A stretch of 64,000 nucleotides of DNA, taken from an uncultured Lachnospiraceae bacterium (GTDB taxonomy: Bacteria > Bacillota_A > Clostridia > Lachnospirales > Lachnospiraceae). The stretch's first letter is position 1. Each line of letters opens with the position of its first letter. The notes beneath the pieces are model-generated. The model was not told the DNA's origin. It saw only the letters and a list, made by a program, of their open reading frames with translations, and did not search any database. The translations under genes were made by a program, and so were the position numbers. Below, one piece after another: positions 29,998 to 38,872 of this stretch. Location of the stretch: assembly GCA_902801585.1 (NCBI GenBank), contig CADCIU010000004.1, positions 150,699-214,698 on the forward strand. Reading direction: 5' to 3'.

Positions 29998-31677
29998 ATG
30001 GCTGCCTATTTAACAACGCTGGGCCTGATCGCCCTCTTTCTTTTGATCTCGGCACTCATCGGGATCAGGGACAGAAGACGTCAGGATGCCGGGGAGCGCC
30101 GGGCGCTTGCCGAAGCATTCGGCAAACCCGGAGCCAAGGAATACCCGGACGGGAGATTCCATGAGCTCCCGCGGTATTTGGAGAGACACCGCAGAGAATA
30201 TGTCGTCGATGACATCACATGGAATGATCTTGATATGGATCTCTTGTTCCGAAGCATGGACACGACCTCGAGCAGCGCAGGGGAGGAGTATCTTTACTGG
30301 CTTCTCAGAACGCCGGTGACGGGGGACCTGCCCCGCTGCAGTGAAGAAGGGATGCACTGGTGGAAAGAGCATGATCAGGAGCGGATCGACGTACAGAGGA
30401 TTCTGCAGCGCCTGGGCAGAAGCGGAAAGTATTCGCTTTATGAATACCTGGATCTGATGAACGAACTGCCGGACAGAAAAGCCATGCAGGATCTGGCCGC
30501 GGTCATAATGCCGGTGATCGCTCTTATTGTCATGGCCTTCAATCCTCCGGCCGGCGTAATATGCCTGCTTTTTGTCCTTGCCCTGAATATTGTCTCGTAT
30601 TTTCGTGTCAAAAGACAGATCGATCCCTATCTTTTCACGTTCCGTTATGTACTCAGGCTTTTAGACTGCGTGAGTCTGCTCGCAGCAGTACCGTTTCCCC
30701 ATTATGAGACTGAAAAAGAGTCGATGCAGAGCGCGGCACGCTCTTTTAAGCGATTCGCAAGGGGAAGCGGGATCCTGCTCAGAGGAAACGGAGGAAACGC
30801 CTCAGGCAATCCCATCGACTTGATCCTTGATTACATGTGCATCTTATTCCACATCGATCTGATCAAATTCGGACTGATGCTGAAGGAACTGAGGGGAAAA
30901 GAGGAGGAAGTTGACCGGATGATCACGGCGATCGGCTCGATCGATGCACAGATCAGTATCGCTTCCTGGCGAGAGAGTCTCCCTGTATACTGCGAGCCGG
31001 TCCTGACAGGAACTTCTTTCGAAGCGGAAGGACTTATCCATCCGCTCTTAAATGATCCTGTTCCCAATGATATGAAGACGGAGAGACCTGTACTTCTGAC
31101 AGGATCCAATGCTTCAGGAAAGTCGACTTTCCTGAAGGCGGCGGCACTCGCGGCACTTCTGTCACAGTCTGTACATACTGCGCCGGCGCGGCTCTATAAG
31201 AACACCTGCTGCAGGATCTATACCTCCATGGCGCTGCGCGATGATATCCGGACCGGGGAGAGCTATTTCATCGTCGAGATCCGCTCTCTGAAGCGGATCC
31301 TGGAGGCCGCTTCCGATGATTCTGGCATACAGGTCCTGTGCTGTGTGGACGAAGTCCTTCGGGGCACCAATACGATCGAGAGGATCAGCGCTTCCGCGCA
31401 GATCCTGCTTCAGCTGTCTTCACTGCCGATCCAGGTCTTTGCGGCCACACACGATATCGAATTGACGGGACTCCTGAAGGAAATCTATGAAAATTATCAT
31501 TTTTCAGAGACGATCACAGGCGACGATGTGACCTTCTCCTATCAACTGCAGGAGGGGCCCGCTGACACGCGCAACGCGATCCGGCTCCTCAGAACACTCG
31601 GATACGACGACGCGATCGCTGACCAGGCGGAAGAACGGGCAGTGCGTTTTACTAAGACCGGACACTGGGAGTTATAA
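29998..31677 (+). CDS. Membrane-associated MutS-like ATPase
   Basis: 559 residues. The C-terminal third is a MutS-type ABC ATPase: Walker [18 protein letters not shown] (near 31099-31149), Walker [17 protein letters not shown] (near 31342-31389) and a switch His in AATHDIELT. The N-terminus has a hydrophobic segment (about residues 4-21), and a longer hydrophobic region lies near residues 166-202. It has no MutS mismatch-recognition domain, so it is not the repair MutS at 41171. This subfamily is widespread in Firmicutes and uncharacterised. It lies between nucleoside phosphorylase and rnhA. Confidence 0.82.
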
Positions 31678-32717: not shown

Positions 32718-34166
32718 ATGAAAATCAGAACAAGATATGCCCCTAGTCCCACGGGACGCATGCATGTAGGAAATCTGCGTACGGCGCTCTATGCCTATCT
32801 GATCGCCAAACATGAAGACGGCGATTTCATTCTCCGCATTGAAGATACAGACCAGGGCCGCTATGTGGAGGGCGCTGTCGAGATCATCAAGAGGACTATG
32901 GAAGAGACCGGTCTGATCGAGGATGAAGGCCCTGAGAAAGACGGCGGAGTCGGCCCCTATGTGCAGAGCGAGCGCATGCGCGCCGGAATCTACGGCAAAT
33001 ATGCGCAGGAACTCATCGATAAGGGCAAGGCGTATCGCTGCTTCTGTACACCCGAGAGACTTTCCACGCTGACTACTGTCGTCGACGGCAAGGAGATCAG
33101 TGTCTATGACAAGCACTGCCTGCATCTGTCCGAAGAGGAGATCGAGCGCAATCTCGCGGAAGGAAAGCCTTACGTCATCCGGCAGAACAATCCGACGGAG
33201 GGAACTACGACTTTCCACGACGAACTCTACGGCGATGTCACGGTCGACAACAAAGAGCTTGACGATATGATCCTGATCAAATCCGACGGCTATCCCACTT
33301 ATAATTTCGCCAATGTGGTGGATGACCACCTGATGGGCATCACGCATGTCGTGAGAGGAAACGAGTATATCTCTTCGTCTCCCAAGTACAACCGTCTCTA
33401 CGAGGCGTTCGGATGGGAGGTCCCCAAGTATATTCACTGCCCTCTGATCACGGATGAAGACCACCACAAGCTCAGCAAGAGGAGCGGACATTCTTCGTAC
33501 GAAGATCTGATCGAGCAGGGATTTTTGCCGGAAGCAGTCGTCAATTTCATAGCGCTTCTGGGATGGTCCCCCGACAGTGACCGGGAGATCTTCAGCCTCG
33601 ATGATCTTGTAAAGATCTTCGACTACCACAGGATCAACAAGTCTCCTTCCGTATTTGATTATCAGAAGCTTCGCTGGATGAACGGCGAGTATCTCAAGGC
33701 AATGGATTCGGAAAAATTCTATGGCATGGCGGAGCCTTACCTGAAGGCAGCCATAAGGAAGGATCTCGATCTCAGAAAGATCGCCGAAATGGTCCGCACA
33801 AGGATCGAGGTATTTCCGGATATAGCGGATATGGTGGACTTCTTCGAGTCACTTCCGGACTATGATCCGTCCCTGTTTACGCACAAAAAGATGAAGACCA
33901 ATGCCGAGTCTTCTCTGGCGGTGCTCAAAGATCTTCTGCCGATCCTCGAGGCGCAGGAAGACTTCTCCAATGAAGCTTTGTTTGCAGTGATCAAAGCTTA
34001 CATTCAGGATAAGGGCTTTAAGAACGGTTATGTGCTCTGGCCTGTCCGCATTGCCGTATCCGGCAGACAGACAACGCCTGCGGGCGCCACGGAGATCATG
34101 GAGATCCTCGGCAAGGAAGAATCCATCGCAAGAATCCGCGAAGCGGTCCGTAAACTGGAAGCCTGA
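32718..34166 (+). CDS. gltX: Glutamyl-tRNA synthetase
   Basis: 482-residue class I synthetase. The HIGH equivalent is in [19 protein letters not shown]; the KMSKS equivalent is [10 protein letters not shown]-terminal anticodon-binding helices follow. No T-box-type leader is present; upstream there is only a 7-bp hairpin (GGGATCA 32665-32671 / TGATCCC 32678-32684) before GGGAGG. Whether it also charges tRNA-Gln (needing GatCAB) cannot be told from the sequence. The helicase gene starts 4 bp after its stop. Confidence 0.96.
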
Positions 34167-34170
34167 TCTT

Positions 34171-35961
34171 ATGACTGCAAATCTGGATTCCTCCCAAAGG
34201 GAGGCTGTATGCTGCGGCACCGGGCCCTGCGAGATCATCGCAGGGCCGGGAAGCGGCAAAACGCTGGTCCTGACAGAGCGCATCCGCTATCTGATCGAAC
34301 ACTGCAATATCAATCCTTCCGAGATCCTCGTACTTACTTTCAGCCGGGCGGCAGCCCTGGAAATGAAAGAGAGATTCATCAGGGGATCCGACAAACCCTA
34401 TCAAGACGTTCGTTTCGGCACTTTTCATTCTGTCTTTTTTCATATCCTGAAAGAGAGCTCCGGCAAGAATTACACGATATTGGGAAGCAGCACCAGGGAC
34501 AGGATCCTGAATCAGCTTCTCCGAAACTACTATCCCGATGAAAGGCAGCGCCCTTTGGTCGAAGAATTGGATAAAGCGCTCCATTCCCTGACCGGATCGG
34601 AAAAAGGCATTGTCTTTCTGCGAGACATCCGCAGGGACTATTTTTCATTCTTAAGAGAAAATGCATACATGGATTTTGACGGTATGATCCGGGAATGCAG
34701 GCGGCTTCTGATCGAAAATGAGGAAGTAAGAAGGTACTGGCAGGAACAATTCCGTGCGATCCTTGTGGATGAATTCCAGGACATCAATATCGAACAGTAC
34801 GAAGTCTTAAAGCTCCTCACCTCCGGGCGGGGACTGTTTGTCGTGGGGGACGACGACCAGAGCATTTACGGGTTTCGCGGGAGTTCACCGGCTGTCATGC
34901 AGAAATTCATGGATGATTTCAGATCTGCCCAAAGGATCCGCCTGAAGTACAATTACCGCTGCAGCGGCCGCATATGCAGAGCGTCCTCACTGATGATCCG
35001 CGAAAACCGCATGCGGATCGCAAAGAAATCCGAAGCGGCGGGAAAGACCGGGGAGAAAGTAATACTGCGCGGCTTTCGGGAAGAAAAAGAGGAACTTCTC
35101 TATCTTTTGAACGCCATCAAAAAGCTGTCATTATCCGAGCAGTGCAGAGCGGCAGTCATTGTCCGAACAAATCTGCATGCGGCCAAAATACAGAAATATC
35201 TGAGCGCAGGAGGCGTGCAATGTGCCGGAAATGCGTCTCCCTCCTCTGATATTATGGATACTGTTCTTCGGGACCTTGAACAATATCAGCTTCTCTCCGT
35301 GCAGATCCGGGGCGGACTTCTCTCCAGGGAGTCGCTGTACAGAGTGATGAACCGGCCCGAACGGTACATTCTGCGCTCAGCGGTCGGGAAGGAGAAGGTC
35401 ACCCCTGAAAGCCTTTTGGACTACGCCGTCAGGCACAAGGGACCGGCCGGCGAGATCCGGGAGTTCCTGCACGATCTGTCCGTGCTCTCCGGTCTTGAGC
35501 CGGAGGGATTTGTCCGCTATCTCTTCAGCGCCGTCGGCTATGCGGATTGGGCCCGTCAGCATTTGGGAGCGTGCGAGGCGGTCGGGATCGTTCTTGACCG
35601 GATCCTGGATAAGAGCAGGGGCGCGAAAGATCTCGATCATCTGATCCGCTCCCTGCGCGGGCAGGATTTTGGGACAGGTGTCAAAAAAGAAAGCGGCGTC
35701 AGGATCATCACAATGCACGTTTGCAAAGGGCTTGAATTTGATCATGTCTATCTGCCTGCATTGAACGAAGGGATCATTCCGGGGAGGAGATGCCGCACCG
35801 AAGAGGATATAGAAGAGGAGAGAAGGCTGCTCTATGTCGCCATGACGCGCGCGAAGGATCATCTGGAAATGCTCTATGTGACGGGGACGAAAGAAAACCC
35901 GAGGCCGCCGTCCCGTTTCTTGTCTGTTTATGGCATCAGAAGCTTTGTATACTCTTCGTGA
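34171..35961 (+). CDS. UvrD/PcrA-like ATP-dependent DNA helicase
   Basis: 596-residue superfamily 1A helicase, shorter than PcrA/UvrD (about 720-750). Motifs in order: Q motif LDSSQREAV, Walker A AGPGSGKT, LTFSRAAALEM (Ia), Walker B VDEFQDIN, GDDDQSIYGFRG (III), MHVCKGLEFDHVYLP (V) and LLYVAMTRAKDHLEM (VI). The gap between motifs III and V is compact, suggesting a reduced 2B subdomain. The start at ATG 34171 follows gltX closely without a strong site, implying coupling. It is a paralog of, not a replacement for, pcrA. Confidence 0.88.
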   Translation: MTANLDSSQREAVCCGTGPCEIIAGPGSGKTLVLTERIRYLIEHCNINPSEILVLTFSRAAALEMKERFIRGSDKPYQDVRFGTFHSVFFHILKESSGKNYTILGSSTRDRILNQLLRNYYPDERQRPLVEELDKALHSLTGSEKGIVFLRDIRRDYFSFLRENAYMDFDGMIRECRRLLIENEEVRRYWQEQFRAILVDEFQDINIEQYEVLKLLTSGRGLFVVGDDDQSIYGFRGSSPAVMQKFMDDFRSAQRIRLKYNYRCSGRICRASSLMIRENRMRIAKKSEAAGKTGEKVILRGFREEKEELLYLLNAIKKLSLSEQCRAAVIVRTNLHAAKIQKYLSAGGVQCAGNASPSSDIMDTVLRDLEQYQLLSVQIRGGLLSRESLYRVMNRPERYILRSAVGKEKVTPESLLDYAVRHKGPAGEIREFLHDLSVLSGLEPEGFVRYLFSAVGYADWARQHLGACEAVGIVLDRILDKSRGAKDLDHLIRSLRGQDFGTGVKKESGVRIITMHVCKGLEFDHVYLPALNEGIIPGRRCRTEEDIEEERRLLYVAMTRAKDHLEMLYVTGTKENPRPPSRFLSVYGIRSFVYSS

Positions 35962-36084
35962 TTGTGATAAAATAAATAGATATTTGTTTATACGGATAAA
36001 TCATAGACCGATCACTAAGTCCAAGGAAAACGCATTGATCATGAAGCGGTCATGAATAAAGATTGTGCGTTAGGAGGCAGACAA

Positions 36085-38316
36085 TTGGAACAGATCAACG
36101 AACGGATTTTTAAACAGATTTCTGAACAGGCATCGGAACAGATTTTCACTGTAAAACCTGCAAATTTATCCAATCCCGGAGTTTGTGTCACAGAAGATGG
36201 TTTTATGATCTCCACGGTATTTCGCGGCGCGGCATCCTGCGGTATGGTCCTGTATCATGTCTTTGACGGCCGCAGGATCACGATCCCTTTTACGGATGCG
36301 TATCGCTACGGAAGCCTTTATTGTGTCCGTGTATCTGTCTCAGATCCCGGAAGCTGGGATCCGAAGGAATGGGGGTATCTTTTGTATAACGAAGATACAT
36401 CGTTTATCGATCCCTGCACGAGAAGCCTGATCACGATCCGGTCCGGTGAGGATACGATCGAAGTCGGCGGTTTTTTCTATAAAACAGATCAAAAGCTCCC
36501 AGCATTCAGGAAGGTCGGATTAAGACCCGGCCCTGAGGAGTTTATTTACAGTCTGCACATTCGAGGCTTCACGATGACGGACAAGGGGATCGAGAGTGTT
36601 CCGGGAACGTTTTCGGCAGCAGCCGAGAAAGCAGCTTATCTGACTTCCTTAGGTGTGACGGCAGTCGAATTGATGCCCGTCTATGAACTTCAGCCTGTCA
36701 CCAGGTCCCAAACCGGTCCCCGCACGATGGAGGACGCGCTGGCGCTTTATCCCGTCAATCACAACGGGCGTCCCATCAGGGATCTCTCTGTAAAGAAAGT
36801 TAATTACTGGGGTTACGGAAGAGGATTTTATTATGCGCCGCGCGCATCTTACAGCACGCCGGGGTATGAGGGCGGTCCGCAGAAGGAGTTCGCGGATATG
36901 GTGGAGAAGTTCCACAATGCGGGAATTTCTGTCTATATGCAGCTGGATTTTCCCTCTTCGGTGACTTCCCAGGCCCAGTCGCAGATCGCGCGCTTTTATG
37001 TCACTCACTATAATATCGACGGTTTCCGGCTCATGGGCGCAGCATCCGATATACGGGCGCTCACCTGCGATCCGCTGCTTTCCGATATACGGCTTTTCCA
37101 TACGGCCTTTGACTTCGATGCGATCCGGGCTATGGATGCCGACAATCCCGAAGCCGGGGCGGTCTCCACGGAGAATCTCTTTAACTGCAGCCAGCTGTTT
37201 TCCGATCTGATCCGGCGTTTTGTAAAGAGCGATGATTATGTGATGAAGGAGTTCCTCTATGAATTCCTGAAGGTTCCCGCCGGACACGGAAATGTGCACT
37301 ATATATGCGGCAGCGACGGCTTTACTCTTCGCGATCTCGTGTCCTACAACAACAAACACAATGAGATGAACGGAGAAGGGGGAAACGACGGGATCAGGGA
37401 CAACTTCAGCTGGAACTGCGGCGAGGAAGGCGATTCCGAAGCAGAGGATGTTTTGCAGCTCAGGCGCAGCCAGATCCGGAATATGCTCACGCTCTTATTC
37501 CTGTCACAGGGAACACTGCTCATGAATGCGGGCGATGAAGCATTCAACACCCAGTTCGGAAATAATAACCCTTATTGTCAGGACAATGAGACGGGATGGG
37601 TGTTGTGGGACAACGGTGAGACCGGAGAGCGCATTCGCGATTATATCAAAAAGATCATTCGATTCAGAAAGGAACACCCGGTCTTTTGCCGGACAATGCC
37701 TTTTAAGAATACGGACTATCTCAGCTGCGGTTACCCGGATCTCTCTCTGCACGGCGCGGAAGCATGGAAACCGGACCTGAGCCATTTCAGCCATTCCATC
37801 GGTATCTGTCTGTGCGAGAATTATGTGCGCGGATCCGAAAAGACGGAGCTGGTCTATGTTGCTGTGAACATGCACTGGGAAAAACAGGAGCTGGGCCTTC
37901 CCAAACTTGCGCCGGGAAGACGCTGGAATCTTGTGATCGACACGGCACAGGAGGAATCCTTTATGGATACCGAGTGCATTCCCGATGACCAGCATGTCAT
38001 CGAAGTGGAACCCAGGTCGATCAGGATCCTGTGCGCCGTGACTTCAAACAAACCGATCCGGAACAAAAAAGATACTGCCAAAAAAGCAGTGATCAAAGAA
38101 ACCGCGATCAAAAAAACTGAGATTATAAATACTGAGATTAAAGAAACCGCTGTAAAAGCTGTAAAAGAGGCGGTCCAAAAAGCCGTAAAAGAAGTAAAAG
38201 AAGCGATAGAAACCGCTGAAGAAACTGTGAAGGCGACTGTGATGAAGGAAACCGCAGACGGTTCAAAGGACGCAGATGAGGCAGGTGCGGAGGAAGGAAC
38301 ACATGAAAAAGCCTAA
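36085..38316 (+). CDS. GlgX/isoamylase-like protein lacking GH13 catalytic residues, with Lys/Ala/Glu tail
   Basis: 743 residues, closest in pattern to glycogen-debranching GH13 proteins: an N-terminal CBM48-like part, then a barrel with VNYWGYGRGFYYAPRASYS and the GlgX hallmark FTLRDLVSYNNKHNEMNGE...NFSWNCGEEG. But region I reads LDFPSS (no Asn-His near 290-291), region II GFRLMGA (Met317 at the nucleophile Asp), region III LFHTAFD (Thr340 at the acid/base Glu) and region IV GSDGFTL (Ser410 for His; Asp411 kept). It is therefore probably not a hydrolase. About 90 C-terminal residues (653-743) are Lys/Ala/Glu-rich, predicted helical. Start taken as TTG 36085 (GGAGG at 36073-36077); ATG 36052 is an alternative. 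Confidence 0.8.
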   Translation: MEQINERIFKQISEQASEQIFTVKPANLSNPGVCVTEDGFMISTVFRGAASCGMVLYHVFDGRRITIPFTDAYRYGSLYCVRVSVSDPGSWDPKEWGYLLYNEDTSFIDPCTRSLITIRSGEDTIEVGGFFYKTDQKLPAFRKVGLRPGPEEFIYSLHIRGFTMTDKGIESVPGTFSAAAEKAAYLTSLGVTAVELMPVYELQPVTRSQTGPRTMEDALALYPVNHNGRPIRDLSVKKVNYWGYGRGFYYAPRASYSTPGYEGGPQKEFADMVEKFHNAGISVYMQLDFPSSVTSQAQSQIARFYVTHYNIDGFRLMGAASDIRALTCDPLLSDIRLFHTAFDFDAIRAMDADNPEAGAVSTENLFNCSQLFSDLIRRFVKSDDYVMKEFLYEFLKVPAGHGNVHYICGSDGFTLRDLVSYNNKHNEMNGEGGNDGIRDNFSWNCGEEGDSEAEDVLQLRRSQIRNMLTLLFLSQGTLLMNAGDEAFNTQFGNNNPYCQDNETGWVLWDNGETGERIRDYIKKIIRFRKEHPVFCRTMPFKNTDYLSCGYPDLSLHGAEAWKPDLSHFSHSIGICLCENYVRGSEKTELVYVAVNMHWEKQELGLPKLAPGRRWNLVIDTAQEESFMDTECIPDDQHVIEVEPRSIRILCAVTSNKPIRNKKDTAKKAVIKETAIKKTEIINTEIKETAVKAVKEAVQKAVKEVKEAIETAEETVKATVMKETADGSKDADEAGAEEGTHEKA

Positions 38317-38872
38317 GACACCGGTGACACGGGAAAAATTCATGGGTCATCTCAAAACGGTCTGCCGTCATCGCTATCTGGTCATGAAAGGGTGCTTTCG
38401 CGTCGGCCTTTACAGGCAGGGTCTGCTTCACGACCTGTCCAAATTTGCGCCGACGGAATTCATGGTGGGTGCCAGATACTGGCAGGGCAATCGATCGCCC
38501 AATAACGCAGAGCGCGAGGAGAAGGGATACAGCGCGTCGTGGCTTCATCACAAGGGCAGGAACCGTCATCATTTCGAGTACTGGGTCGACTACAATCTGC
38601 GAGGCGAGGCGGGGAGCGGGCCGGTCATTCCGGTCAAGATGCCGGGACGCTATGTGATCGAGATGCTCATGGACCGCATTGCCGCGAGTAAGGTATATGC
38701 CGGCGACAAATACGATGACGCTTATGCGCTCAGATATTTCGAACAGGGCACCAAAGTGATCGAATTCATGCATCCTGAGACAGCGGCGCTGCTGCACATG
38801 CTTTTGCGCATGCTCGCCGAAGAAGGGGAGGACAAGACATTTGCCTATGTGCGCAGACATCTGCACAAATAA
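38303..38872 (+). CDS. DUF5662-family protein
   Basis: 189-residue soluble protein of an uncharacterised family (DUF5662). It is rich in His and has a distinctive order: RHRYLVMKG, then GLLHDLSKFAP, then WLHHKGRNRHHFEYWVD, then MLMDRIAASK. The LLHDLSKF box plus downstream HH and D resembles an HD-type metal phosphohydrolase, which is inference. Start at ATG 38303 after GGAGGAAGG; it overlaps the 3' end of the GlgX-like gene by 14 bp, and its own end overlaps the next gene by 32 bp, so all three are translationally coupled. Confidence 0.8.
   Translation: MKKPKTPVTREKFMGHLKTVCRHRYLVMKGCFRVGLYRQGLLHDLSKFAPTEFMVGARYWQGNRSPNNAEREEKGYSASWLHHKGRNRHHFEYWVDYNLRGEAGSGPVIPVKMPGRYVIEMLMDRIAASKVYAGDKYDDAYALRYFEQGTKVIEFMHPETAALLHMLLRMLAEEGEDKTFAYVRRHLHK

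Follow-up and report, generated by a model that had tools for sequence, protein, structure and literature searches.

A GlgX/isoamylase paralogue of Lachnospiraceae with a dismantled catalytic site, probably a glycogen-binding accessory

What use can a bacterium have for a protein built like a glycogen-debranching enzyme in which the catalytic residues have been replaced? This question is raised by a gene of an uncultured Lachnospiraceae bacterium, located in a stretch of 64,000 nucleotides of contig CADCIU010000004.1 (assembly GCA_902801585.1, forward-strand positions 150,699 to 214,698). This whole stretch is referred to here as the window, and its product of interest, which belongs to the GlgX/isoamylase group of glycoside hydrolase family 13 (GH13), as the window protein. 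From the comparisons outlined below, it is somewhat probable that this protein is a non-catalytic GlgX/isoamylase paralogue of Lachnospiraceae that functions as a glycogen-binding accessory and acts without an obligate GlgX partner. Residues are numbered according to the 754-aa form of the protein unless stated otherwise, which adds 11 to the number in the 743-aa form.

Membership of the GlgX/isoamylase fold is evident from full-length similarity in both structure and sequence. The best match of the window protein in the PDB is TreX/GlgX (2vnc, E 5.3e-56), and the NCBIfam GlgX model TIGR02100 recognizes it with 260.9 bits (E 1.9e-77), below the equivalog cut-off of 640.9. An initial annotation of this DNA, which had proposed a debranching-enzyme-like protein with an erased active site, correctly pointed to the preserved scaffold motifs, including the FTLRDLVSYNNKHNEMNGE box. 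It is the catalytic site that has been lost. Region I of the window protein reads VYMQLDFPSS versus VILDVVFNHT in the enzyme encoded at locus L071, region II IDGFRLMGAA versus VDGFRFDLAS, region III DIRLFHTAFDF versus NVKLIAEAWDA, and region IV VHYICGSDGFTL versus INFITCHDGFTL. As annotated (in 743-aa numbering), the nucleophile Asp is replaced by Met317 (M328), which both motif reading and alignment bear out, and the alignment likewise confirms Thr340 (T351) at the position of the acid/base Glu and the loss of both substrate His residues, to Ser291 (S302, His I) and Ser410 (S421, His IV). Asp411 (D422) is the sole catalytic residue retained, and the combination of Asp nucleophile, Glu acid/base and Asp stabiliser that characterizes a GlgX enzyme is accordingly broken.

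This loss is not a peculiarity of one genome. A protein search returned 7670 relatives, the best 120 of which reach down to 31% identity. None of these 120 has the nucleophile Asp or His I; 13 retain the Glu, 12 retain His IV and 57 the third Asp. Of 591 loci found by scanning species genomes, the best 80 comprise 29 enzyme-like loci with the GFRFDL motif, spread over several phyla, and 51 of the same kind as the window protein. The titles of these 51 name Lachnospiraceae, genera placed there, or organisms for which the family is left open (Bacillota, Clostridia, uncultured bacterium, a Clostridium sp. and a Eubacterium sp.). One branch separates the window kind from the enzymes with a Shimodaira-Hasegawa-like approximate likelihood ratio test (SH-aLRT) support of 100, in a tree built from every second row (55 of 108). 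This tree was obtained by a quick search without mixture model, includes the catalytic columns and contains no plant sequences. For residue counts, a family set of 171 rows (the window protein, the 51 loci and 119 proteins, one 417-aa fragment having been dropped) was compared with 44 enzymes; these counts refer to sequences and not to independent events. Neither the nucleophile Asp nor the full triad occurs in any of the 171 family rows, while Glu is found at the acid/base position in 22 and His IV in 23. Because the large alignment misplaces position 328, with the enzyme Asp in a gap column, the nucleophile was counted by ungapped motif and in other alignments. The same triad script recovers the full triad in 42 of the 44 enzymes; of the other two, L055 is gapped in region IV, and the L052 motif, NGFRFD, falls outside the pattern. 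A second feature of the family is the loop between regions I and II, which has 17-18 residues in 171/171 family rows versus 62-63 in 44/44 enzymes and is thus 44 residues shorter. Read from the alignments, the -1 subsite is dismantled in this family, through loss of the nucleophile, the Glu and both His residues together with the shortened loop.

The same picture emerges from a sample of 80 Lachnospiraceae genomes, 65 of which carry the paralogue. Sequences were read for 63 of these carriers; the remaining two, G003 and G025, had entered the first set as the genomes of loci L003 and L029, and two genomes are common to the 171-row and the 63-genome sets. The loop has 17-18 residues in every one of the 66 rows read, which represent 63 distinct genomes; the full triad occurs in none of these genomes, and the nucleophile Asp in only one of them (L186), without the acid/base Glu. 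It is proposed that the family be recognized by a region I-II loop of 17-18 residues, absence of the nucleophile Asp and conservation of the motifs HNExNGE and GNNNxYCQDN, all of which the window protein displays.

Loss of catalytic residues may also reflect decay, and a pseudogene that has stayed open by chance would account for the relaxed catalytic columns and for the faster divergence of the family (median pairwise identity 0.37, versus 0.52 among the enzymes). However, the frame of the window gene is open over 743 codons plus stop, as the initial annotation had noted, its two closest homologues, which are 99% and 88% identical to it, likewise measure 743 aa, and frames of 568-813 aa were found in 62 of the 63 distinct genomes read, the exception (439 aa) being on a contig of 4,017 bases. 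Moreover, 62 columns are conserved in both family and enzymes, and the ratio of nonsynonymous to synonymous substitution rates (dN/dS) is 0.10 for the pair L004/L039 (synonymous divergence, dS, 1.85) and 0.18 for L024/L032 (dS 1.35), two further family pairs being saturated. These pairs exclude the window protein, for which the best species-genome match among those listed has 44% identity. Homologue lengths, conserved columns, dN/dS and intact frames thus reduce the chance of a pseudogene to practically nothing. The initial annotation had taken the open frame as proof of selection, which by itself is insufficient; conservation across the family is the better evidence, and together with the missing triad, the short loop throughout and the low dN/dS it upholds the claim of a non-enzyme under selection.

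What selection appears to preserve lies outside the catalytic core. Columns that reach at least 95% invariance across the 44 enzymes, and in which the window protein has a residue, were scored as kept if conserved in at least 90% of the family rows. On this basis, 33/40 were kept in the outer segment (residues 423-519) versus 6/55 in the catalytic core (294-422; Fisher p 8e-13), and a second alignment of 81 rows gave 34/42 versus 3/56. Elsewhere, 3/19 were kept in residues 32-155, 13/33 in 156-293 and 6/8 in 520-665. As judged from these alignments, strong constraint acts on the fold and on the outer-subsite segment. In GlgX of Streptomyces venezuelae, according to PMC9530166, the residues W222, Y224, H271, D342, E378, W380 and H449 bind the -1 sugar, and the other sugars are contacted by R212, E470, N534 and Y536. 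The equivalent of W222 is W in 171/171 family rows; at the Y224 equivalent, 135 rows have Y and 36 have F, while the equivalents of the outer contacts E470, N534 and Y536, which correspond to E442, N506 and Y508 of the window protein, are E in 169, N in 170, and Y in 155 or W in 14, respectively; R212 has no placeable column in the alignment. At the E470 position the family is stricter than the enzymes, of which 18 of 44 have E there and 26 have W. The further proposal of the initial annotation, a scaffold binding glycogen or another alpha-glucan, fits these retained outer-subsite residues and may be correct.

Conserved residues that might have taken over catalysis were also considered. Conservation is confined to the family at eight positions (G172, N251, K392, E442, D555, G560, S565 and W572), among which there is no carboxylate pair at regions I-IV. 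This makes it very unlikely that the protein is still active through catalytic residues at new positions, possibly as the debranching enzyme where a species lacks any other, even though E persists at the acid/base position in 22/171 rows and H at the His IV position in 23/171. The distribution of debranching enzymes bears on this same possibility. The 80 genomes were drawn evenly from Lachnospiraceae, the family of G003 (a Butyrivibrio sp.), which was picked as reference since it carries the gene; the hit threshold was E 1e-40, so that weaker matches are missed. GlgX is present in 24/80 genomes (23 full and one fragment, all carrying GFRFDL), type I pullulanase in 20/80, GDE_C in 14/80 and GlgA in 79/80. 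GlgX, type I pullulanase and GDE_C are all missing in 28/65 carriers in spite of the near-universal GlgA, as would be expected if the paralogue itself opened branches. Nevertheless, they are also missing in 12/15 non-carriers (other debranching families were not searched for), so that the lack is not specific to carriers. As a side observation, 10 of the 23 full GlgX proteins of this sample, with their catalytic motifs present, score 612.3-635.4 bits; because they fall below 640.9, the TIGR02100 cut-off under-calls real GlgX in Lachnospiraceae. In a control family (reference G117, an Oscillibacter metagenome-assembled genome with GlgX), 0/61 genomes had a C-terminal-half hit of the window kind, and GlgX was found in 5/61.

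The same distribution addresses whether the paralogue could be a bacterial counterpart of plant ISA2, in other words, a non-catalytic subunit that must assemble with active GlgX into a heteromer and modulates the activity of GlgX. In favor of such a partnership, GlgX is mildly associated with the paralogue, since 23 of the 24 genomes with GlgX also contain the paralogue (Fisher p 0.031). However, no GlgX is seen in 42/65 carriers, only 15 of 40 carriers of the earlier set have a full-scoring GlgX (in addition to a fragment in G038 and a C-terminal fragment of undecided kind in G015), and 28/65 carriers have none of the three debranching families. As a general rule, obligate partnership is ruled out by the carriers without GlgX, and an ISA2 counterpart in this strict sense is distinctly improbable.

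In the favored explanation, the non-catalytic paralogue would hold an alpha-glucan chain in its outer subsites without cutting it, and would thereby serve in the cytoplasm as a glycogen-binding accessory, either a scaffold or a sensor of branched glucan ends. Its distribution suggests that it acts independently of GlgX and not as a fixed subunit. More speculatively, its output could be transmitted by the DUF5662 protein encoded by the overlapping gene downstream. Several observations weigh against this explanation. Retention of the outer-subsite residues may have structural reasons, and because most of them are conserved in the enzymes too, it is by itself no proof of sugar binding. Furthermore, the E470 residue is not universal even among enzymes, the Y224 equivalent is F in about one fifth of the family rows, and loop 437-454 is of low confidence in the AlphaFold2 (AF2) model. 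The association with GlgX mentioned above also speaks against full independence, and many of the genomes are drafts (at least 95% completeness was requested, values not being given), so that some absences may be assembly gaps. Co-occurrence with GlgA, which also scored over the cut-off in 38/40 of the earlier set, is uninformative as an association test because practically every genome has GlgA. On the genomic side, GlgA lies on the same contig in 12/65 carriers, the nearest being 17.5 kb off, and no glycogen enzyme appears among the neighbors' Pfam families listed (25 of 61 and 25 of 60).

The features of the locus are collected in Table 1. TTG at 36085 is the preferred start, over an in-frame ATG at 36052 that gives the longest open reading frame (ORF; 754 aa), because it is preceded at 7 bases by AGGAGG and because the two nearest database proteins are both 743 aa long; the antisense strand of the 36085-38316 frame is broken by stops. 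CBM48, which PMC12510319 names for GH13_11 proteins, was not matched in the Pfam search of the window protein. Residues 214-250 (36691-36801), mostly of low model confidence, correspond to a stretch with a family median of 36 residues (range 7-55) versus 15-17 in the enzymes. The C-terminal tail (38047-38313) is modeled mostly as one long helix, and the charged tails of several close relatives differ from it in sequence.

Table 1. Features of the paralogue gene and its neighbors (window coordinates).
Feature	Position	Strand	Remarks
UvrD/PcrA-like helicase gene, upstream	34030..35961	+	Conserved neighbor; ORF start may be too early
Shine-Dalgarno-like AGGAGG	36072..36077	+	7 bases before TTG; read from sequence
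Non-catalytic GlgX/isoamylase paralogue (probable accessory)	36085..38316	+	TTG start, 743 codons + stop (TAA)
N-terminal beta domain at CBM48 position	36145..36516	+	Residues 32-155; AF2 model, aligned within whole GlgX/ISA chains
W253, equivalent to S. venezuelae GlgX W222 (sugar contact)	36808..36810	+	W in 171/171
GH13 region I remnant VYMQLDFPSS	36931..36960	+	His replaced by S302; enzymes: VILDVVFNHT
Shortened region I-II loop	36961..37014	+	18 residues (enzymes 62-63); alignment
M328 at nucleophile position	37033..37035	+	Motif and alignment
T351 at acid/base Glu position	37102..37104	+	Motif and alignment
S421 replacing His IV, D422 kept	37312..37317	+	Alignment
Outer-subsite segment	37318..37608	+	Residues 423-519, best conserved part; holds E442, N506, Y508
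C-terminal beta domain	37741..38046	+	Model; Pfam ISOA1-3_C match at residues 567-637
Lys/Glu/Ala-rich C-terminal tail	38047..38313	+	Mostly helical prediction, low confidence; sequence not conserved
DUF5662 gene	38303..38872	+	ATG inside 3' end of GlgX-like gene, 14-base overlap

The neighboring genes suggest other contexts for the protein. DUF5662 (PF18907) is adjacent, downstream and on the same strand in 35 of the 56 genomes that have both genes, and its invariant residues and weak fold matches resemble those of HD-type metal phosphohydrolases, so that the protein is possibly an HD-type hydrolase; no paper naming the family was found in the open-licence literature. With such a neighbor, and with a helicase gene as conserved neighbor upstream, the GlgX scaffold might have been recruited together with these genes to a role other than glucan metabolism (e.g., nucleotide signaling or DNA repair). 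The absence of glycogen enzymes from the neighboring Pfam families listed is compatible with this, the retained outer-subsite segment points rather to a glucan, and we consider such a recruitment doubtful. A bolder combination of both ideas is a glucan-sensing module, in which the dead GlgX would bind glycogen chain ends and report glycogen status to a nucleotide signal via the HD-like DUF5662 protein, the pseudoenzyme and not GlgX then being the core glycogen-associated isoamylase of Lachnospiraceae; this possibility is decidedly unlikely.

Some further observations were made around these genes. A TraX-like gene separates the GlgX-like gene from DUF5662 in L028, L029, L037, L044 and L047, and TraX represents 10/80 downstream genes. 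Both O6-methylguanine-DNA methyltransferase domains are present C-terminally, according to Pfam, on five of the 120 listed homologues (P0095, P0106, P0108, P0111 and P0113), and by eye the tail of L134 reads like that of these five. The window also encodes, at 29998-31677, a 559-aa protein with MutS domain V as its only Pfam match, below the MutS1 and MutS2 cut-offs, in the neighborhood of topB, rnhA and a dUTPase gene.

If the accessory role is right, the commonest isoamylase-type protein of the sampled Lachnospiraceae is a non-enzyme, and homology-based counts of glgX may include the non-catalytic paralogue. For Blautia obeum, for example, PMC10395257 mentions two glgX homologues, one of which may be the paralogue. 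A question also raised is how the 28 carriers without GlgX, type I pullulanase and GDE_C open the branches of glycogen.

Among known systems, the window protein resembles GlgX/TreX (GH13_11) in its full-length fold, its domain order and, nearly column for column, its segment 423-519, and differs from it in the lost nucleophile, Glu and both His residues and in the region I-II loop. Type I pullulanase, which belongs to GH13_14 and has its catalytic residues present, gives a lower score for the window protein (77.5 bits). The open-licence literature, from which subscription journals are mostly absent, yielded no report of a non-catalytic GlgX from bacteria; a note to the archaeal enzyme table of a review marks 'one inactive isoform' (PMC11046441). 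The nearest precedent is plant ISA2, the non-catalytic partner of ISA1. According to PMC12510319, each ISA2 examined there varies at four or more of five conserved positions, the nucleophile among them, and, with these five residues matched by our own reading, four are changed in the window protein. ISA2 has in addition an extra N-terminal beta-sandwich, whereas the model of the window protein predicts only about 31 residues, helical or disordered, before the first strand. Furthermore, plant ISA2 has a catalytic ISA1/GlgX partner in the same cell, which does not hold as a rule for the bacterial family; because GlgX is so often absent, the paralogue is most likely not an obligate partner of GlgX as ISA2 is of ISA1. 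In all, non-catalytic isoamylases are already known from plants, and the bacterial family adds a variant that, if the accessory role is right, represents a parallel to ISA2 that often acts with no GlgX alongside.
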